Assembly (NCBI RefSeq): GCF_025753815.1
Contig: NZ_JAOWRF010000232.1
Location: 1-39,777 of the forward strand
DNA: 39,777 nucleotides
Reading direction: 5' to 3'
From: Plectonema radiosum NIES-515
Lineage (GTDB): Bacteria; Cyanobacteriota; Cyanobacteriia; Cyanobacteriales; Nostocaceae
Both the position numbers and the translations under genes were made by a program. Below the pieces are notes generated by a model. It did no database searches and had not been told where the DNA came from. It was given only the letters and a program-made list of their open reading frames with translations. Shown here in pieces: positions 22,267-38,047 of this stretch; the stretch's first letter is position 1, and each line of letters starts with the position of its first letter.

Positions 22267-24624
22267 ATGCATCGACAAAACCTGCGCCTCACCTTCGTTG
22301 TGCTACTCACCGCTGTTTTGATGCCTTTCTCTGCCAAGTTAACTGCACCATTCCAAGCGTCGCAGGTGTTGGCGCAAACAACCGATCCCCGGAAAGCTGA
22401 AGCACACAGACTGAATCAACAAGGTATTCAGCAGTATCAAACCAGTCAATTCGAGGCGGCATTACAGTCTTTCCAACAAGCATTAATTATCTACCGGGAA
22501 ATTAAAGACCGTCAAAGCGAAGGGTGGGCGCTGGGCAATCTGGGGATTGCTTACATTTACCTAGGAAACTACGCTAAAACAATTGAATATGAACAACAGT
22601 GGTTGGCGATCGCACAGGAAATTAAAGACCGTCAAGGCGAAAGTGCGGCGCTGGGCAATCTGGGTCTTACTTACAATTCCCTGGGGAATTACCCTAAAGC
22701 AATTGATTACCTACAGCAATCGTTGGCGATCACACGCGAAATTAAAGACCGTCAAGGCGAAAGTGCGGCGCTGGGTAATCTGGGTATTGCTTACATTTCG
22801 CTAGGGGACTACGCCAAAGGAATTGAATATGAAGAGCAACTTTTGGCGATCGCACGCGAAATTAAAGACCGTCAAAACGAAGGTTCGGCGCTGGGTAATC
22901 TGGGGGATGCTTACCTCGAACTAGGAAACTACGCTAAAGCAATTGAATATGAACAGCAGTGGTTGGCGATCGCACGACAAATTAAAGACCGTTCAAGCGA
23001 AGGTAAGGCGCTGGGCAATCTGGGTATTGCTTACAATTCCCTAGGGGACTACGCCAAAGGAATTGAATATGAAGAGCAACTTTTGGCGATCGCACGGGAA
23101 ATTAAAGACCGTCAAAGCGAGGGACAAGCCCTGAACAATCTGGGTGTTGCTCTGTTTAAATCTGGCAAACTTAGCCTAGCAGAGAGTACTTTAATTGAGG
23201 GCATTAAGGTTTATGAATCTCTACGCGGTGGATTAGAAGATATCAACAAAGTGTCTATTTCTGACACGCAAAGTAATACATACGAAACTTTACAAAAAGT
23301 CCTGATTGCTGAGAATAAAACCAATGCAGCGCTGGAAATTGCTGAACGGGGACGCGCTAGGGCATTTGTAGAGTTACTGAATAAGCGGTTATCACCAACA
23401 GATTCTCTAGCAAATAAACAATCTAATCCATCTATTGCCGAAATCAAACAAACTGCAAAAGCACAAAAGGCAACTTTGGTTCAATATTCAATTATTTACG
23501 ATGATTTCAAAGTTGAAGGTAAAAAACAAGCCAAGGAATCAGAACTTTATATTTGGGTAGTCAAACCTACAGGTGAAGTGACTTTTCGCAAAGCTGACTT
23601 GAAACCCCTATGGCAAAAAGAGAATACAACTCTTGACGACTTTGTAACCATCAGTCGTAAATCTATCGGTGCAAGAGGTCGCGGCGGTGTTGACGTGAGT
23701 TACAATCCGGCTGTGCAATCACAAAACCGATTTAAACAGCTTCACAACTTGTTAATCAAACCGATCGCCGATTTATTACCCACCAACCCCAACCAGCACG
23801 TTATTTTCATCCCCCAAGGTTCCCTATTCCTCGTTCCCTTCCCAGCTTTGCAAGATGCCAAGGGCAAATATTTAATTGAAAAACATACCATCCTCACTGC
23901 CCCGGCAATTCAGGTATTAGATTTAACCCATCGGCAGAGGGGGAGGGGGAGAGTGGGGGGGGGGGAGAGGGGGGGAATATTAATTGTGGGTAATCCTACT
24001 ATGCCTAGTGTGGCATTTGTACCGGGGGAGAAGCCGCAGCAATTGCCCAGTTTACCAGGTGCGGAAATGGAAGCAAAAGCGATCGCTACTCTTTTCAATA
24101 CCAAAGCGATTATCGGCAATCAAGCGACCAAAACAGCGATCGTTCAAAAAATGACCAAAGCCAGAATTGTGCATTTAGCCACCCACGGCTTATTGGATGA
24201 TTATAAACAACTGGGTGTACCGGGTGCGATCGCTCTTGCCCCAGACCCCCCTTCATCCCCCCTTACTAAGGGGGGAAACGAGGAAGGTAACGGTTTACTT
24301 ACAGCTTACGAAATCTTTGACCTAAAACTAAACGCCGAATTAATCGTTCTCAGCGCTTGTGACACTGGTAGAGGTAGAATTACAGGCGATGGCGTAATCG
24401 GGCTATCTCGTTCATTAATTACAGCAGGTGTCTCCAGCGTCATGGTGTCTTTGTGGAAAGTACCAGACGAACCCACAGCATCCCTAATGAGTGAATTTTA
24501 CAAAAATATTCAACATAATACAGATAAAGCCACAGCCTTACGTCAAGCCATGCTGACAACTATGAAAAAGAATCCTCAACCTTTAGACTGGGCTGCTTTT
24601 ACCCTGATTGGTGAGTCAGAATGA
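22267..24624 (+). CDS. TPR-CHAT domain protein (predicted caspase-like protease)
   Basis: 785-residue protein with a likely signal peptide or N-terminal anchor (FVVLLTAVLMPFSA, then LAQTTDP), at least six tandem 40-residue TPR units between about residues 45 and 300, and a C-terminal CHAT domain. CHAT proteins are caspase-related; the likely catalytic pair is His640 (HLATHG) and Cys698 (LSACDTG), both present, followed by GVIGLSRSLITAGVSSVMVS and LWKVPDEPTASLMSEFYKNI. TPR units typically read EIKDRQSEG...LGNLGIAY and bind partners. Two insertions look like non-family DNA: a G-rich stretch encoding RQRGRGRVGGG, and a palindromic C/G repeat encoding PDPPSSPLTKGGNEE. Function and substrate are unknown. 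Hairpin repeats flank the gene on both sides. Confidence 0.88.
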   Translation: MHRQNLRLTFVVLLTAVLMPFSAKLTAPFQASQVLAQTTDPRKAEAHRLNQQGIQQYQTSQFEAALQSFQQALIIYREIKDRQSEGWALGNLGIAYIYLGNYAKTIEYEQQWLAIAQEIKDRQGESAALGNLGLTYNSLGNYPKAIDYLQQSLAITREIKDRQGESAALGNLGIAYISLGDYAKGIEYEEQLLAIAREIKDRQNEGSALGNLGDAYLELGNYAKAIEYEQQWLAIARQIKDRSSEGKALGNLGIAYNSLGDYAKGIEYEEQLLAIAREIKDRQSEGQALNNLGVALFKSGKLSLAESTLIEGIKVYESLRGGLEDINKVSISDTQSNTYETLQKVLIAENKTNAALEIAERGRARAFVELLNKRLSPTDSLANKQSNPSIAEIKQTAKAQKATLVQYSIIYDDFKVEGKKQAKESELYIWVVKPTGEVTFRKADLKPLWQKENTTLDDFVTISRKSIGARGRGGVDVSYNPAVQSQNRFKQLHNLLIKPIADLLPTNPNQHVIFIPQGSLFLVPFPALQDAKGKYLIEKHTILTAPAIQVLDLTHRQRGRGRVGGGERGGILIVGNPTMPSVAFVPGEKPQQLPSLPGAEMEAKAIATLFNTKAIIGNQATKTAIVQKMTKARIVHLATHGLLDDYKQLGVPGAIALAPDPPSSPLTKGGNEEGNGLLTAYEIFDLKLNAELIVLSACDTGRGRITGDGVIGLSRSLITAGVSSVMVSLWKVPDEPTASLMSEFYKNIQHNTDKATALRQAMLTTMKKNPQPLDWAAFTLIGESE
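22501..23160 (+). repeat. 120-bp tandem DNA repeats coding for TPR units
   Basis: The phrase ATTAAAGACCGT recurs at 22501, 22621, 22741, 22861, 22981 and 23101, exactly 120 bp apart. Neighbouring and alternate units are very similar at DNA level, for example 22801-22860 against 23041-23100. Such identity indicates recent duplication or gene conversion among TPR units, and copy number probably varies between strains. Confidence 0.9.
23936..23978 (+). repeat. G-rich low-complexity insertion inside the CHAT protein gene
   Basis: A run of GGGGGAG-type units, including ten consecutive G, lies between the conserved LDLTH and ILIVGNP segments. It keeps the reading frame and encodes an Arg/Gly-rich linker. 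The homopolymer is prone to slippage and to sequencing error. Confidence 0.75.
24247..24276 (+). repeat. Palindromic CCCCCCTTA...AAGGGGGG repeat within a coding region
   Basis: A C-run/G-run palindrome of a type common between cyanobacterial genes lies in frame inside the CHAT domain, between catalytic His640 and Cys698. It encodes a Pro/Ser/Gly-rich loop without breaking the frame. Confidence 0.65.
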
Positions 24625-30522: not shown

Positions 30523-31080
30523 ATGAAACCAGTAATCAAGCCCGAATTGCAAGTAAAATTTTTGCAACATCTCAACCGCAAGAAAAAAAATGATGAGGGT
30601 TTCACCTTAATTGAACTGCTCGTCGTCGTAATTATTATCGGTGTTCTAGCAGCGATCGCTCTACCTTCTCTGCTAGGTCAAATTTCTAAAGCCAGACAGT
30701 CTGAAGCTAAACAAAATATTGGTGCGATTAACCGTGCCCAACAAGCATATTTCCTAGAAAACCAAGACTTCACCACTAGCGTTCAAGCTGTGGGAATTGG
30801 TATTAAAACCCAAAGTGAGAGTTTCAAGTACCAAGCCATAACCGACGCTGGTAGTGACACAGTAGCTAACATGGGAATTGCAATCAAACCTGCGCTCAGA
30901 TCCTACTTTGGGATAGTAGGTACAACTTTAGGTGGTACTGGTACAAGCACAGAAGTACTTACAACAGCCTTCGCTTGTGAAGCTCTCAACCCCACAATAG
31001 TCGCACCAATAACAGGAACAAGCCCTTCGACGGTTGATTGCGTGACAAATAACAAAGAATACAAACCGATGGGTAAGTAA
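30523..31080 (+). CDS. pilA: Type IV pilin PilA
   Basis: 185-residue prepilin. The class III/type IVa processing site is EGFTLIELLVVVIIIGVLAA: a Glu-Gly before the mature Phe, then the hydrophobic N-terminal helix with the conserved Glu at +5. The leader before Gly is about 27 residues, longer than in proteobacterial type IVa pilins but common in cyanobacteria. Two Cys near the C-terminus (ACEAL and VDCVT) can form the D-loop disulphide. AAGGAA precedes the ATG. It is the major pilus subunit for gliding of hormogonia and is followed, after a strong hairpin, by an OgtA-type transferase, as described for Nostoc punctiforme. Pilin glycosylation by that enzyme is an inference. Confidence 0.93.
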   Translation: MKPVIKPELQVKFLQHLNRKKKNDEGFTLIELLVVVIIIGVLAAIALPSLLGQISKARQSEAKQNIGAINRAQQAYFLENQDFTTSVQAVGIGIKTQSESFKYQAITDAGSDTVANMGIAIKPALRSYFGIVGTTLGGTGTSTEVLTTAFACEALNPTIVAPITGTSPSTVDCVTNNKEYKPMGK

Positions 31081-31189: not shown

Positions 31190-33430
31190 ATGAACACGAA
31201 ATCCTCTTTGATTACTTGCCAACAATGGCAACAGCAAGCTGAACAATACCTACTTCAAGGTGATTACTCTCAGGCTGCTAGACTGTACGAACTGGCAGTT
31301 GATGCAAAGCCAGATATTAAATCTTATTATTGGCATTTGGGCTTAATGTTGTTGTTGCAGGGACAACAAGTGGAAGCTCAAACGACTTGGTTTATGGCAC
31401 TGATGGAGGGTGAACCGGAAGAAGTCGAATTGTGGAATGCCGAATTAGTGGAGGTGTTGTCAACAGAAGCACAACGACGCAAAGAGTTAGCAGACTATGC
31501 AACAACTCAGATAATTCGGCAGCAAATAAAGGAAATTTGCCCAACGAATATTAGTAATTTATTACATTTAATTATACTTACTAACAAGTTGGAGACAGAT
31601 GCAGAAGAAGGGTTATCAACTCTTTTAGAAGTAATTGAAATCCTGCGAGAAGAGGAACTTTCAGGAATAGATTTTGAACTATTGATGCAAATGTTGCAGA
31701 GTGTTTTAGATTCTGTACCTTTGCATCCATACACCCAGGAATTAGTAGAAGCTTGTTTAGTTTATATCCAGAATAATAGTCAAGCCTTGACTTTTTTGGG
31801 TGTCATGCTGCCAGCAATGATTAATATTGCCTACATCCAGTTGCAACCGGCAATAGCAGCACGTCTTGGTGAATTCTGTTTGCGGTTGGATGCTAAAAAT
31901 ACAGAAATATTACGCCACTTGGCTACTTTTTATCAAAATGCCGGGGAACATGATAAGGGTATAGGGACTGGTAAATTCTGCTATTCCTTAGTAAAAGAAT
32001 TGATAGATAAAGTGTGGGCAAACCAACTGATTATTCGAGGTTTGATGAACGCTGGTGGATATTGGGAAGAAGCGCGTTCTTTCTTTTTGCAACATGAATC
32101 ACTGCTACGGTCTTTGATAGAACAACAACCAACTAATCTGTGTTCGGTCAAGGTTTCACAACTATTCAATTCATATTTTTTTGCTCCATACTTTCGAGAT
32201 AATCCGAGAACTGATAGACTAATTCAGAATCAACTGGCTAAACTCTGCCAAGCCAATACGGAAGTTTATGCTCAGGGAGACGTAGAGAAATGCCGTCAGC
32301 GACATCAACAGCGTCAACAACTGGGTGTTGTTCCTAAAAAATTAAAAATTGGCTACCTGTCTTATTGTTTAAAAGGTCATTCTGTCGGCTGGTTATCGCG
32401 ATGGTTGTTTCAACATCACGATCGCGATCGCTTTGAATTGTATGGCTACTTTATTAATAATCAAAAAACCTCGGAACCACTCCATAAATGGTTTCTAGCT
32501 CAAGTTGATCAAGTTCATAAATCAAGCAACAGCGATGAAATCGTTGAGCAAATTTACAAAGATGAAATCGATATTCTCGTCGATTTAGATAGCATTACGC
32601 TAGATGTTACTTGTGAAGTTCTAGCGATAAAACCTGCCCCGATTCAAGTGACTTGGTTAGCTTGGGATGCCACTGGAATCCCTGGTGTTGATTATTTTAT
32701 CGCTGACCCCTACGTTTTACCAAACAAGGCACAAGAATATTATTCAGAAAAAATTTGGCGTTTACCCCAAACCTATATAGCTGTGGATGGCTTTGAGGTG
32801 GGTGTACCTAATCTCCGTCGCGATCAACTTAATATCCCTAACGATGCCATTATATATCTTAGCGCTCAAAAAAGTTACAAGCGCAACGCCGATACAGTGC
32901 GACTGCAAATGCGGATTATCAAAGAAGTTCCTAATAGCTACTTCTTGATTAAAGGTACTGCTGAGGAAGAATCTTTGAAAAACTTCTTTAATCAAATAGC
33001 AGAAGAAGAAGGAGTAGACTGTTCCAAATTGCGATTTATCCCAGATGTGCCTTCAGAATCAGTTCACCGAGCAAATCTCGGCATTGCCGACGTTGTATTA
33101 GATACTTATCCTTACAACGGAGCGACTACGACTCTAGAAACTCTGTGGATGTGTATTCCTTTGGTGACGCGAGTTGGTGAACAGTTTGCCGCTCGTAATA
33201 GCTACACGATGATGATGAATGCTGGTATCACAGAAGGCATTGCCTGGACGGATGAAGAATATATAGAGTGGGGGGTGCGCTTGGGTAAGGATGAGGCTTT
33301 GCGACAACAGATAGCCTGGAAGCTCAAAGCATCACGGCAAACTGCACCGTTGTGGAATGCGAAGCAGTTTACTCGTGAGATGGAAAAGGCTTATGAGCAA
33401 ATGTGGCAAAGGTATATTGACGGTAGATAG
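31190..33430 (+). CDS. ogtA: SPINDLY/OGT-type O-GlcNAc transferase OgtA
   Basis: 746-residue protein with N-terminal TPR repeats (residues about 10-370; QQAEQYLLQGDYSQAARLYE) and a C-terminal GT41-like catalytic domain. The latter starts KLKIGYLSYCLKGHSVGWLS and contains IQVTWLAWDATGIPGVDYFI, the UDP-sugar pocket segment YLSAQKSYKRNADTVRLQ, and DVVLDTYPYNGATTTLETLW. Such enzymes attach GlcNAc or a related sugar to Ser/Thr of proteins in the cytoplasm. In Nostoc punctiforme the gene after pilA, ogtA, was reported as required for hormogonium development and motility, so the symbol follows position and architecture. The gene is 109 bp after pilA. Substrate is unproven; pilin is an obvious candidate. 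Confidence 0.88.
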   Translation: MNTKSSLITCQQWQQQAEQYLLQGDYSQAARLYELAVDAKPDIKSYYWHLGLMLLLQGQQVEAQTTWFMALMEGEPEEVELWNAELVEVLSTEAQRRKELADYATTQIIRQQIKEICPTNISNLLHLIILTNKLETDAEEGLSTLLEVIEILREEELSGIDFELLMQMLQSVLDSVPLHPYTQELVEACLVYIQNNSQALTFLGVMLPAMINIAYIQLQPAIAARLGEFCLRLDAKNTEILRHLATFYQNAGEHDKGIGTGKFCYSLVKELIDKVWANQLIIRGLMNAGGYWEEARSFFLQHESLLRSLIEQQPTNLCSVKVSQLFNSYFFAPYFRDNPRTDRLIQNQLAKLCQANTEVYAQGDVEKCRQRHQQRQQLGVVPKKLKIGYLSYCLKGHSVGWLSRWLFQHHDRDRFELYGYFINNQKTSEPLHKWFLAQVDQVHKSSNSDEIVEQIYKDEIDILVDLDSITLDVTCEVLAIKPAPIQVTWLAWDATGIPGVDYFIADPYVLPNKAQEYYSEKIWRLPQTYIAVDGFEVGVPNLRRDQLNIPNDAIIYLSAQKSYKRNADTVRLQMRIIKEVPNSYFLIKGTAEEESLKNFFNQIAEEEGVDCSKLRFIPDVPSESVHRANLGIADVVLDTYPYNGATTTLETLWMCIPLVTRVGEQFAARNSYTMMMNAGITEGIAWTDEEYIEWGVRLGKDEALRQQIAWKLKASRQTAPLWNAKQFTREMEKAYEQMWQRYIDGR

Positions 33431-33439
33431 GCTCGTAGT

Positions 33440-33463
33440 GAGGGCTTAAGCCCTCCATTTTTT
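33440..33463 (+). terminator. Rho-independent terminator of ogtA
   Basis: The palindrome GAGGGCTTAAGCCCTC (33440-33455) is followed by CA and six T, the classic shape. It lies ten bases after the ogtA stop codon and overlaps the end of the facing SPINDLY-type gene. Confidence 0.8.
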
Positions 33464-34919
33464 AAGCACTGAAGTGGTTACTACAAATTTCTTTATAGAA
33501 GGCTTCTAGACCTGCGACACAAGCTTTGTCATCAAAAAGACGATCGCAACGTTGTTTGATTTTTTCTGCAATTAGCGATCGCCAAATTGGGTCTAATCCT
33601 AATTTTACAGCAATCTCGATATATTCGGCTTCATTTTGGGCAATGGTGTCTCTTACTTGAATCATTTTCAGAAAGCTGTCAGAATGACGACCCCGCATCA
33701 ATTCCCCCGGACAGGTGACGATGGGAAGATGGCAAGCGATCGCTTCTAAGCTAGTATTACCACCAGACCAACTTAAAGTATCTAAATAAACGTCTGAAAG
33801 TACATTGATTGCTAAGTAATCAAGCCGTTCTGGAATCGTCAAGAAGACGCAGTAATCCTCGTAATTTAAATTAACTGCGGCAAAGGCTCTTTGTAGACGA
33901 GGTTTAAGGATACTGCCGCGTAAAAATACGAATGTAGCTTGAGGTACGCGACAAGCAATTTCTGGCAAAATAAAGTCATATTGCGGCAAGTATTTATAAG
34001 GTGCTTGACAGCACAAATAAATAACAGCATCATCCTTTAGGTGAAAATCTGCGCGGGTTTTTGTGATTAAAGGAATATAAGGTTTGGGGTAAGAAACTCC
34101 AATATTAGGTAAGCGAATTAATGTCTCTGAATAATGTTCTTGTGCATTTTCTGGTTCCATTAACTCGCTAGACAAAAAGTAATCAATTGTTGACAATCCA
34201 GTTGTCACGGGATGTCCCCAAGCGGTGCATTGGACTGGTGCTAATTGCAAAGAAGCCATTTGCATTGTTTGAGCATCCATGCCAATTTCTGGATATACGA
34301 GAATATGCAGTTTATCGGCTAGTATTTGTTGGCAAGCAGCTTCAAAGTTATGAGGAATATGCCGGAATACATCACTGTATTGCTGAAATTTTTGTGTGAT
34401 TGGATCTGGTTCGTTTCCTGTGTAGTAACAGTAAATTTCAAAGTTTTGGCGATCGCAATAATTCAGCCAGCCAATTAACCAAAGTGTTCCACTATAAGAA
34501 TGCAGATAAGCTGAAGCGTAGCCAATGCGAATTTTCTGATTCTCCTTTAAGATTGGCATGGTAATCGGTGCAACCCATTGAGGATAATTAGCCCCCATAA
34601 TTCTCTGGACTAAATTTCCATATTGCTGTTGCAGTTCTACATCGTTTTTAGCCTGAAAAGATAAGTAATAGTTCGTTAAATTTCTTATACCTGCTAAAGC
34701 CTTTTTTTGCTGTTCAGGACTGTCTAGAGATGTTTGTTGAATTAAGTTTTGCAATCCGGTTATAAATCGCTGACGATAGTAAATAATGTCTTCTTTACTA
34801 TCGTATAGTGTGGGAACTATTAAGTGTTTGAGGATTTGAAAAGTGTAGTCGTTAGGTAATGATTTAGATGCGGCATTGGCACTTATAATTGCTTCTTGGA
34901 TACGTCCATTTCGCTGCAA
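33462..34919 (-). CDS. SPINDLY-type O-GlcNAc transferase-like protein, second copy
   Basis: GT41-like protein, 485 residues if a TTG at 34917-34919 is used. The catalytic half has IRIGYASAYLHSYSGTLWLI, VQCTAWGHPVTTGLSTIDYF, YLCCQAPYKYLPQYDFILPE, VFLRGSILKPR and DVYLDTLSWSGGNTSLEAIA, which match the SPINDLY/HMW1C-like pattern. But the same frame continues upstream for about 70 more codons of clear TPR sequence (see 34920-35146) with no ATG, GTG or TTG, so the TTG start cuts a TPR domain and is doubtful. The true product is either fused to the upstream methyltransferase-GT2-GT4 protein by a frameshift or starts at a rare codon. It is convergent with ogtA and shares the terminator region. Confidence 0.8.
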   Translation of the reverse strand: MQRNGRIQEAIISANAASKSLPNDYTFQILKHLIVPTLYDSKEDIIYYRQRFITGLQNLIQQTSLDSPEQQKKALAGIRNLTNYYLSFQAKNDVELQQQYGNLVQRIMGANYPQWVAPITMPILKENQKIRIGYASAYLHSYSGTLWLIGWLNYCDRQNFEIYCYYTGNEPDPITQKFQQYSDVFRHIPHNFEAACQQILADKLHILVYPEIGMDAQTMQMASLQLAPVQCTAWGHPVTTGLSTIDYFLSSELMEPENAQEHYSETLIRLPNIGVSYPKPYIPLITKTRADFHLKDDAVIYLCCQAPYKYLPQYDFILPEIACRVPQATFVFLRGSILKPRLQRAFAAVNLNYEDYCVFLTIPERLDYLAINVLSDVYLDTLSWSGGNTSLEAIACHLPIVTCPGELMRGRHSDSFLKMIQVRDTIAQNEAEYIEIAVKLGLDPIWRSLIAEKIKQRCDRLFDDKACVAGLEAFYKEICSNHFSA

Positions 34920-35146
34920 GTTGATTATTAAAGGAAAATGCAGCTTTCCTTCTGCGGGGTAAAGTTTAATTGCTGATTGGAGGCAGTTAAAATATTCGTC
35001 TAAAAAATTTAACTGCCTGTAACACTCGCTTAAGCGAGAATAAAGTTCTACATCTCCTATGTGAGTTTCTAAAATCTTTTGATATTGAGAAATAGCTTCT
35101 TGCCATCTCCCTGACTCAAAGAATTTATTACTTAAGTAAAAAAAAA
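34920..35146 (-). other. TPR-coding extension without start codon, joined to upstream gene at a T9 run
   Basis: In frame with the SPINDLY-type gene, this part encodes NKFFESGRWQEAISQYQKIL, then ELYSRLSECYRQLNFLDEYF and LQSAIKLYPAEGKLHF: a TPR unit and a half. The frame is open back past nine T (complement of A9 at 35138-35146), where it overlaps the last codons of the 971-residue gene (QFFFT-stop, at 35132-35134). Reading the T9 run with one extra T, or shifting by -1 there, joins both genes into one frame of about 1,528 codons. There is no ATG, GTG or TTG between the in-frame stop upstream and 34919. Confidence 0.7.
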
Positions 35147-38047
35147 CTGCTCGTTTTGTTGTGTGGTGAATTTTTCTAATTCAAATGCGGGAATGTTTAC
35201 TCCATAAAATGCGATAGCTTGTTGATTTTCGGCTGATAAAATAATTCTGGCTTGGATGTGAGATATTAAAGCTTCCCACTGAATATCAGCCAAGTTACTA
35301 ACTAGAGAAATCTCTAGACCTTCGCTAATATCTATATCTTCTTCCATCAGCAAATTCATCGTCACACCAGATAACAAAAGTTCGGCATCTTCAGGAGAGA
35401 TATCAGTAGTATCGATTAACAAAGTTATGCGATCGCTTGCTGGATGAGTTGCGATCGCACTAATAACTCTTTGCAATTCTAAACCGAGTGATTCTTCTGG
35501 CTGTGACCAATCTGGAAATACAATTAAATTAATTTCTCTGAGATTCAATGGCAAAAGAGTAGTCTCAATTAAGGTAGAAGCAACGATTTTTGCCATATTT
35601 GACCAAGAAAACTTTTTCGCTTGTTCTAATCCCGCAGTAATTAACGAGTTGCGAACAGATGGTTTTTGTACTTCACACAATGCATTTACCATCTCATGAA
35701 TATCATCATCTTGCACATATAATGCGGCTTTACCCGCAACTTCGGGAATTGATGCATTTGGACAAGTGATGACTGGACAACCAGAAGCGAGCGCTTCTAA
35801 AACTGGCAAACCAAATCCTTCATATTTAGAAGGATAAACCAGCGCAATAGCACCAGAGTAAGCTGTTTTTAATTCTTCATCACTCAGTTGCAGCATATGA
35901 ACAGTACTACCCGATGTATATCTTCTTAATTCTTCATCGAGTAAGCCTACACCACCTGTACAGACAATATCAAATGCCTGTTTGCTGTAAAGTTGAGCAA
36001 AAGCCTCTAAAAATAAAAGAGTATTTTTATAACCCCCAATGCTTACTATCATAAAATAGGGCTTGGAAATGCCGTACTTTGTTTTAAAACTATTAACTTC
36101 TTGTTGACTAGCTGGTGAAAAATTATCTGTCACACCACAAAGAGCAACCTTTACTGATTCTAAAGGTATTTCTGGGAAAAACCTGACTAAATCACGCGCT
36201 GTATTTTCCGAAATTGCTAAATAGGCAGATGCGTTTTGAATACCCTGATGTTTTACTTGCCACATGGGATTATTCATATCCCATCCCATGACTTCTGGAA
36301 TCATATCATACGCCATGAATACAGAAGGTGTTGTCGTCGGGGTAGTGTAGTAAGTGGAGATAAATAAATCAGCACCTTCTTCATCGCATACTTGCTGTAA
36401 AATTTCGCGATCGACATCAGGATCATTGTAGTCATAAGATGGTAGAATTCGATATCTAATACCAGGAATTTTCGGAGCAGTTCCAGCGCGATCAAGTACA
36501 ACAATATGCTTCGCAAAGCCGTTGTTTACCCATTCTTCTAGTAATGATTTCCAAACACGCGCAATACCAGTTTTGTATAGTTGAAAAAATATTCCGTCAA
36601 CAAGAATCTTTGGATGTGTTGAATAATATTTTCTCGCAAAAATTCCTCTATTACGAATATGTAAAGCTATCTGATCGAGACGTCCATCCCTGCCAGTAGT
36701 ATTTTGTTTATGTCGCATCAAGTTTTCGATTTGAGGAATAGGTATCAGGGAGTATCCTGCTAATTTTGCCCTATAGCACAAATCTACATCATCCCAATAA
36801 CCTGGACCATAATCTTCACACCAACCTCCTAAGGCTTTTAGGGTAGAATTTTTAATGCATAATGACCATCCTTCTATATAACTTTCACCTAGCTCATTTT
36901 GCATTAGACCGGGACCAGCTATACCGTTTTTAGCTAGGTTGCATAGGCTTTCAAGTGGAAAATTTAAAACTTGCACATCATTGTTTAAGAACAAGATATA
37001 CTCTCCTGTAGCCACCTCTGCACCTTGATTGTTACCTGCGGCAAATCCCCGATTTTGCTCGTTTCGGATGAGTTTAATATTGTGTTGCTGGCAAAAATCT
37101 TCTAATGCCAATTTGCCTTGTGGCTGACTACCATTATCAACAAAAATTATTTCTGTATCCTTCAAGTGTTCAAGATTATGCTTCCATATATCTAATAAGT
37201 CAGTATGATCCCACCAAGGTACAACTATACTGGTTAATTCTTTGCTTAAAGATTGGCATTTTGTGGTGCAGTCAATAATTGTTTTTTTAGGTTGATGCAC
37301 ACCAACGAACAACAGTTGATAAGCACATAACTCTAAAAACTCTTCTTCCGAAACATCTAAAAGTGCAAGATTACCAAATCTTACAATGCGTTCTAGTCCT
37401 TGTGGACGGAAGGAATGTAATTCTTGACCTCCAAGATAGAAGACTGAATCACATATGATATTCGCTTGATTTAAAAGTTCGATAAAACTTTTCTGGGTGA
37501 AAAATCTTAAGTGAGTACGATCTAAAATTCCCTCGTCTTGGTATTCCCAAGTTCCAAGTTCTATAACTTGCCTTAAAGTCGGTAAATGTCGGATATTGGG
37601 TATACTCGCTATCATCACACCTTCTGGTTTAAGGAAAGTTGCATATTTACGAGCTATATGCCAAGGGTCTTTTAAATGTTCCAGTATGTCCCCAAAGATA
37701 ATACAGTCAAATTCTCCTTGGTTAAAGGGTGGTTCAAAAGATTCTAATTCAGCGTTATAAACTCGATCGATATTGTTGTTTGCGTAGTAAAATGCCTCAC
37801 GATCCAACTCAATTCCTACTACACATCGTTGGGGATTTTCTTCTTTTAATGCTTTACCTAACATCCCTGCTCCACAGCCTACATCAAGGATATTTAAAGC
37901 ATTCTGTGGCACGACTGCAACTATTTCTCGACGTACATGCCGATAATATTGCGGAAGTTCATTGAATGGGCGGACATTGTATGATAACTGAGTATTGTTT
38001 TCCATGAAATTATCCATATGAAAATTGGACATATTGTTTGACATCAT
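35132..38047 (-). CDS. Multidomain methyltransferase-GT2-GT4 glycan enzyme
   Basis: 971-residue protein with three enzyme domains. First is a class I methyltransferase (about residues 25-240; LNILDVGCGAGMLGKALKEE, FGDILEHLKDPW). Next is a GT2 domain (about 272-480; SIVVPWWDHTD, EIIFVDNGSQ, YILFLNNDVQV with the NND metal site). Then a GT4 domain (about 485-830; ILVDGIFFQLYKTGIARVWK, ALVYPSKYEGFGLPVLEALA). The last 140 residues (INLIVFPDWSQPEESLGLEL and on) match a region I recall at the end of other cyanobacterial glycosyltransferases, function unknown. Such proteins build an oligosaccharide in one polypeptide. Several ATGs lie close together at the N-terminus (MMSNNMSNFHM), none with a good Shine-Dalgarno. 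It overlaps the frame of the SPINDLY-type gene at its end. Confidence 0.87.
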   Translation of the reverse strand: MMSNNMSNFHMDNFMENNTQLSYNVRPFNELPQYYRHVRREIVAVVPQNALNILDVGCGAGMLGKALKEENPQRCVVGIELDREAFYYANNNIDRVYNAELESFEPPFNQGEFDCIIFGDILEHLKDPWHIARKYATFLKPEGVMIASIPNIRHLPTLRQVIELGTWEYQDEGILDRTHLRFFTQKSFIELLNQANIICDSVFYLGGQELHSFRPQGLERIVRFGNLALLDVSEEEFLELCAYQLLFVGVHQPKKTIIDCTTKCQSLSKELTSIVVPWWDHTDLLDIWKHNLEHLKDTEIIFVDNGSQPQGKLALEDFCQQHNIKLIRNEQNRGFAAGNNQGAEVATGEYILFLNNDVQVLNFPLESLCNLAKNGIAGPGLMQNELGESYIEGWSLCIKNSTLKALGGWCEDYGPGYWDDVDLCYRAKLAGYSLIPIPQIENLMRHKQNTTGRDGRLDQIALHIRNRGIFARKYYSTHPKILVDGIFFQLYKTGIARVWKSLLEEWVNNGFAKHIVVLDRAGTAPKIPGIRYRILPSYDYNDPDVDREILQQVCDEEGADLFISTYYTTPTTTPSVFMAYDMIPEVMGWDMNNPMWQVKHQGIQNASAYLAISENTARDLVRFFPEIPLESVKVALCGVTDNFSPASQQEVNSFKTKYGISKPYFMIVSIGGYKNTLLFLEAFAQLYSKQAFDIVCTGGVGLLDEELRRYTSGSTVHMLQLSDEELKTAYSGAIALVYPSKYEGFGLPVLEALASGCPVITCPNASIPEVAGKAALYVQDDDIHEMVNALCEVQKPSVRNSLITAGLEQAKKFSWSNMAKIVASTLIETTLLPLNLREINLIVFPDWSQPEESLGLELQRVISAIATHPASDRITLLIDTTDISPEDAELLLSGVTMNLLMEEDIDISEGLEISLVSNLADIQWEALISHIQARIILSAENQQAIAFYGVNIPAFELEKFTTQQNEQFFFT

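Follow-up and report, generated by a model that had tools for sequence, protein, structure and literature searches.

A conserved T9 run at the joint of a glycosyltransferase gene and a TPR-GT41 frame in cyanobacteria, a probable site of RNA-polymerase slippage

A run of nine T lying between two reading frames of Plectonema radiosum NIES-515, in the 39,777-nucleotide stretch of DNA analysed here (contig NZ_JAOWRF010000232.1, hereafter the window), is very likely a conserved recoding site; we put the probability roughly at 0.82. Through this run, probably by slippage of RNA polymerase, one locus would produce both a free multidomain glycosyltransferase and a fusion of this glycosyltransferase with a TPR-GT41 protein. 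That slipping occurs is inferred, without RNA, peptide or reporter data. What looks like a split or broken gene probably yields a multi-enzyme chain, predicted from summed ORF lengths to reach about 1,230 to 2,100 residues in the loci where the two halves are out of phase.

The anatomy of the joint is shown. Gene 1 (35132..38047, minus strand) has an ATG start and, read without a shift, encodes 971 aa with methyltransferase, GT2 and GT4 domains (Pfam matches), followed by a C-terminal linker without Pfam match (residues about 808-970; 35138..35626, minus strand), for which the structure model of a relative predicts an alpha/beta domain. Its 3' end reads CAG TTT TTT TTT ACT TAA: the T9 run (35138..35146, minus strand) is the joint of the two frames, and the TAA stop (35132..35134, minus strand) comes two codons past it. 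Gene 2, which encodes the TPR-GT41 part (33462..35138, minus strand, 558 codons and a stop), lies in frame -1 to gene 1 and would be entered by the shift. Its frame is open on the minus strand from 35180 to 33462, i.e. over 572 codons, with no ATG, GTG or TTG before a TTG at 34919 (34917..34919, minus strand), 73 codons past the run. This first conventional start is unlikely to be used: similarity to TPR begins at codon 2, and because it covers residues 2-65 after the run, matched by designed TPR proteins, a start at 34919 would remove that stretch. One added T opens 561 codons from the run to the stop, so that with one extra U these and the 967 gene 1 codons before the run make 1,528 residues; the junction peptide of the fused product would be EQFFFYLSNKFFESGR. 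The 20-base stretch around T9 occurs only once in the window's genome. All this agrees with the original prediction, which had placed a T9 at the end of gene 1 with a TPR-OGT frame at -1, had counted about 70 TPR codons before a TTG and no earlier start, and had foreseen a chain of 1,528 residues by one extra U or a -1 shift, against 971 unshifted.

Gene 2 displays a GT41 (OGT/SPINDLY-like) domain behind TPR repeats; this is established as a domain order, while the transfer of sugar to protein is inferred from sequence alone. The GT41 part matches PF13844 (E 1.5e-30), and the protein resembles human OGT (E 1.8e-35), 5djs (E 1.1e-28) and SPINDLY (E 2e-21). Its Pfam TPR matches are individually weak, below the curated cut-offs, and NCBIfam gave sub-cutoff matches only. 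The order TPR then GT41 is that of human OGT, plant SPINDLY and bacterial OGT, from which the present case differs in that the module is joined by a shift behind methyltransferase, GT2 and GT4. The window also contains a second TPR-GT41-like gene (31190-33430, 746 aa), convergent to gene 2 and 31% identical to it over the matched part.

We propose that T9 is a conserved recoding site where a variable upstream glycosyltransferase (in the window methyltransferase-GT2-GT4-linker) meets a constant TPR-GT41 module. Without a shift, the product would be the free 971-aa glycosyltransferase, ending a few residues past the start of the run; a slip of RNA polymerase on T9 would add one U to part of the transcripts and extend it to the 1,528-aa fusion. 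Nine relatives have the same T9 but encode the fusion directly, and there the slip would give the short form. A -1 ribosomal slip on U_UUU_UUU would yield an identical peptide; if recoding is accepted, we judge the polymerase the likely agent rather than the ribosome, but that the slipping is transcriptional remains an inference, as does the use of both products. That bacterial RNA polymerase slips efficiently on nine A or T is established knowledge (PMC5009743). Besides, the comparative criteria applied by others (PMC1088944) are fulfilled: a run of nine A or T stands where a slip lengthens the product, the out-of-phase run recurs in 34 of 89 loci, and homologues exist with the joined product in a single ORF, here nine loci with T9 in frame.

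For the comparison, a DNA search covered 59 genomes including the window's own (48 with a match), and protein searches covered 217 genomes of the family (94 with E up to 1e-120) and 388 of the order (109 with E up to 1e-150), the own genome being included in both. Only the stronger part of the matched genomes was taken, and the counts below are valid for 89 rows only. The 74 and 20 stretches retained made with the window 95 rows, six of which were dropped before the tree and the counts: a T8 locus whose gene 2 is broken further down (L130, from G010), a 48% identical paralogue (L131) and four loci with a distant GT41 paralogue only (L132-L135, from G002, G001, G003 and G016).

Among the 89 rows, window included, a T8 or T9 run stands at the joint in 43 (42 T9, one T8) and is absent from 46. 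All 43 run-bearing loci fall within one group of 71 rows (SH-aLRT 99), alongside 28 without the run. We call state A the loci where the run is present and TPR-GT41 is out of phase, state B those where the run is present and the two are in phase, and state C those of the same group that lack the run. State A accounts for 34 of the 43 (33 T9 loci and the T8 one) and state B for the other 9. Gene 2 identity to the window goes from 89% down to 66% in the state A set, which includes Fischerella sp. PCC 9431 (G008), Anabaena azotica (G225), A. subtropica (G236), Nostoc favosum (G142), Kastovskya adunca (G048) and Coleofasciculus sp. LEGE 07092 (G401); Nostoc linckia z4 (G147), Anabaena sp. 4-3 (G229) and Iningainema tapete (G118) belong to state B. 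The first DNA search gave the same out-of-frame, exact T9 joint in G004, G019, G008, G028, G006 and G048; G011, G031, G029 and G018 emerged from it as in-frame relatives that lack the run. A pattern scan of named genomes returned 28 stretches, of which 25 are cyanobacterial; judged by sequence, the remaining three (Eubacteriaceae, Prevotella, Pelagibacteraceae) resemble chance hits.

The run at the junction is conserved beyond chance. Its length is 9 in 42 of the 43 loci and 8 in G203, it is directly preceded by AG in all 43, and none of the 43 has T10. Elsewhere no fully invariant stretch exceeds 6 nt in gene 2 or 4 nt in the last 300 gene 1 codons, and the median pairwise difference at fourfold sites is 0.49. 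When up to 300 gene 1 codons and gene 2 were scanned in the 43 loci, junction run excluded, no other single-base run of at least 9 was found in these 110,673 coding bases, the longest being three A8 and two T7. TTT is certainly the usual Phe codon (median share 0.78), so that, given three Phe, codon choice alone would give three TTT in a row with a probability of about 0.48 per locus; the strength comes from its repetition across lineages. Over 12 representatives less than 80% identical, the probability of T9 by codon choice is about 5e-5, and only 3 of 27 other conserved Phe columns are all-TTT. A Fisher test of the T run against the layout (43, 0, 6, 22) gives p 3e-13, which ignores kinship and carries no weight.

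Both polarities of reading are observed. Without a shift, state A loci run into a stop codon four or five codons from where the run starts, and in the 31 out-of-phase T9 rows tested only one added T opens a long frame, of 556-569 codons; the T8 locus of G203, out of phase as well, needs one T less, i.e. a lost U. In state B, unshifted reading gives the long protein (9 ORFs of 1264 to 1841 aa, that of G208 being cut by a contig end); with one added T a stop comes after 3 codons in 6 rows, 7 in 2 rows and 31 in 1 row, and with one T removed after 4 codons in 9 of 9. Such early stops in the shifted frames partly reflect conserved Leu-Ser/Gly codons and are not counted as separate evidence. States A and B are interspersed on a quick tree of gene 2, with 7 changes between them, and its well-supported branches force at least 5 changes for B. 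What sets the two states apart is not the length of the run but single-base differences next to it: for example Iningainema tapete (state B) reads T9-CACCTAAG and Anabaena subtropica (state A) T9-ACCTAAG, and a single base just ahead of the run distinguishes G209 from G208 and G210, its close relatives, although this last case depends on a draft of 1,300 contigs. In three state A loci (G107, G209 and G401) the run is in another codon phase; therefore state A arose in more than one way.

Purifying selection acts on both halves, including the downstream codons that precede any start. Over 12 pairs dN/dS is 0.04-0.40 for gene 2 codons 0-73 and 0.12-0.28 for the rest of gene 2; for the gene 1 part nine pairs give 0.15-0.37, and the three pairs with unlike upstream parts give 0.57-0.79. 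Start codons were also surveyed in the 34 state A rows. The first ATG of the gene 2 frame comes at codon 180 or later in 30 of them, a start upstream of the run (ATG) exists in a single one, and a TTG is the second codon past the run in 16, overlapping the gene 1 stop in 15. The remaining 18, window included, lack this TTG. With 18 rows devoid of it and the first ATG mostly at 180 or beyond, reinitiation cannot be the common mechanism, though it is conceivable in 16.

The run-less relatives present another picture. In 22 of the 28 state C rows TPR-GT41 has its own frame, with open frames of 589-749 codons; G018 is interrupted and has 292. No run of 8 or more T occurs in these 22 loci of the same clade. 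The other 6 continue upstream in frame without the run, and the fusion can therefore exist without it. In three genomes of the window's genus (G001-G003) gene 1 stands alone, ends without the run and has no TPR-GT41 match, and in G012 the gene closes with T7, behind which lies a stretch that, by eye, resembles a decayed TPR part. The original prediction had called for a search of relatives with the joined order in a single gene: nine do read through the same T9, with varying upstream domains. Relatives with separate genes, which would have spoken against it, exist as well; these, however, lack any T run of 8 or more, and a second linker copy is present in the four inspected (G011, G031, G029, G018): theirs is a different arrangement. 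Its slippage interpretation is supported, the choice between polymerase and ribosome being still a matter of inference.

The modules found upstream differ among seven scanned carriers: GT4 repeats with Methyltransf_24 and CmcI-type domains, an FkbM methyltransferase with GT4 repeats, methyltransferase with GT2 and GT4, Methyltransf_24 with GT4, GT4 alone (two carriers) and DUF5672. We observe that two pairs of loci (L070 and L083, L071 and L068) have similar TPR-GT41 halves and quite different upstream halves, i.e. a module exchange before the T9 joint. In two state C loci, L072 and L117 (upstream of 8574 and 8588 respectively), a separate glycosyltransferase gene is followed at short distance by a linker-TPR-GT41 gene, and such side-by-side linker copies are a possible substrate for gene-fusing recombination. 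Confidence in the structure model, made for a state B segment, is only partial: the mean pLDDT is 68.6, with block means of 78-92 over residues 41-160. The model predicts an alpha/beta linker domain, then a helix (173-186) opening the TPR part, in which the Phe of the run are residues 176-178. As the joint comes after a complete alpha/beta domain in this model, the short product is predicted to end past a whole domain. The top 50 fold matches of the model place OGT and TPR proteins first and are uninformative on the linker.

Several other explanations must be weighed. The same two products could come from -1 ribosomal frameshifting on U_UUU_UUU instead of slippage by RNA polymerase, which we hold unlikely although it remains possible. 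In both codon phases the 0 frame contains the heptamer, an identical peptide would result, and the first 30 nt past the run fold slightly better than in run-less loci (mean z -0.6 against -0.21), so that a weak stimulator within these 30 nt cannot be fully excluded. However, seven U would suffice for the ribosome and yet nine are kept in 42 of the 43 loci and eight in one; SD-like tetramers are found upstream in only 3 of 43; and folding over 60 nt downstream, slightly better than that of shuffled sequence (mean z -1.15), compares with that of the 28 run-less loci of the clade (-1.0). A downstream stem had at first looked like a ribosomal stimulator, the 60-nt mean z being -1.19 while a control placed 600 nt away gave 0.39; since the run-less loci fold about the same, this folding mostly belongs to the TPR coding sequence. 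A hairpin just 5' of the run finds no support either (mean z -0.21). It might also be argued that the frameshift is merely tolerated: slippage would rescue the fusion, the short form would be a by-product, and the run would render neighbouring indels harmless. The origin of state A in more than one codon phase (3 of 34 rows differ), the one-base differences between A and B, and the purifying selection on the TPR-GT41 half, which shows that the fusion is needed, all fit this view. Against it, no T10 is seen in 43 loci though inserting one T would restore the frame of state A, state B retains the run although the fusion does not need it there, and the existence of gene 1 alone in same-genus genomes makes the short form a plausible enzyme. 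We regard this explanation, too, as improbable.

The remaining rivals fare worse. That the genes are simply separate, gene 2 being translated by reinitiation or from an internal start and T9 being incidental, could rely on the TTG at the second codon in 16 of 34 loci and on the existence of relatives with truly separate genes; the scarcity of usable starts described above (no such TTG in 18 of 34, the window among them; first ATG at 180 or later in 30; an upstream start in 1) makes it very unlikely. In the window, moreover, the first start would drop a TPR stretch which is matched from codon 2 and is under selection, and the retention of the run would be left unexplained. Phase variation at the DNA level, with replication slippage altering the tract and toggling the fusion within a population, is hardly more credible. 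Surface-glycan genes are typical phase-variable genes, homopolymers mutate often, and G203, with its T8, neighbours the T9 relative G008; on the other hand, between species the tract is exactly T9 in 42 of 43 and never T10, and the state is set by the bases beside the run. Finally, an assembly or sequencing error, or a recent disabling mutation, could be suspected in a genome that is a draft of 421 contigs. These were the alternatives left by the original prediction, and they fail: the same out-of-frame joint is found in 32 other T9 loci, plus the T8 one, several T9 loci lie on chromosome-size contigs (G008, G060, G134, G151, G228, G230, G235 and G237), and both halves are under purifying selection. 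This last explanation is all but ruled out.

The polymerase slippage that we favour has known counterparts. In tssM (C. rodentium tssM1, A11; Y. pseudotuberculosis tssM3, A9) two length variants come from a homopolymer as predicted here, and slipping produces the long form in one of the organisms but the short form in the other, like states A and B (PMC4256274); C. rodentium needs both forms of tssM1 and their ratio (PMC4256274). These are however two secretion-system genes tested by experiment, whereas our case is a T9 in a chromosomal glycosyltransferase of many cyanobacteria, and is predicted only. In Thermus thermophilus dnaX, with a nine-base run, the long product is in one ORF as in state B, and slipped transcripts stop soon after to give a short product, about half of each (PMC5009743); dnaX has a single reading state, and most carriers here show the opposite polarity. 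The slips of Shigella mxiE and spa13 lead to an extended product, as would those of state A (PMC5009743, PMC4256274), but in plasmid-borne secretion-system genes. The A8-A10 runs of IS elements in Nostoc sp. PCC 7120 have been interpreted as slippage sites (PMC1088944). The orfA-orfB pairs with A9 slippage, Nostoc sp. PCC 7120 included, are overlapping ORFs joined on nine bases and conserved among homologues (PMC1088944); they belong to mobile elements, and here we deal with a stable cell gene with exchangeable upstream modules.

A survey of 108 genomes found seven conserved groups of slippage sites, six of which are IS elements (PMC1088944). This suggests that conserved sites in stable, non-mobile genes are rare. 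In the literature searched (open access, supplements excluded) we found nothing on slippage in cyanobacterial glycosyltransferases, and a keyword search of PMC3711429 gave nothing on this gene. Compared with known sites the present one is unusual by its breadth, by the occurrence of both polarities in one family and by its position at a joint with exchangeable upstream enzymes. Sites where the slip shortens the product are hard to assess by sequence comparison (PMC1088944); in this family slipping on the same T9 is predicted to make the product longer in some species and shorter in others, and both polarities can therefore be compared on one tree and tested in culturable cyanobacteria. A bolder reading, which we advance tentatively and would not yet back, is that linker, T9 and TPR-GT41 form an exchangeable cassette with a built-in fusion switch. 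Any glycosyltransferase or methyltransferase recombined upstream might then automatically be made both free and tethered to TPR-GT41. A one-base change beside the run might set the majority form, and selection might keep the slip site rather than the frame; this too is for the moment more conjecture than conclusion.

Other homopolymers were noticed in passing. A second conserved slip site is possible at an A9 in a QKKT context near the start of a gene which, by eye, is FHA/protein-kinase-like (L080:2350, L089:1652, L096:1343), found at the same place in G224, G210 and G118. In the window, an A8 (RKKKND, 30583-30590) stands just before a pilin-like GFTLIELLVVV segment in the ORF 30523..31080 (plus strand). 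A G11 run (23955-23965), in the ORF 22267..24624 (plus strand), lies within a G-rich low-complexity stretch, RGRGRVGGGERGG, before ILIVGNPTMPSV, and is a candidate variable tract.
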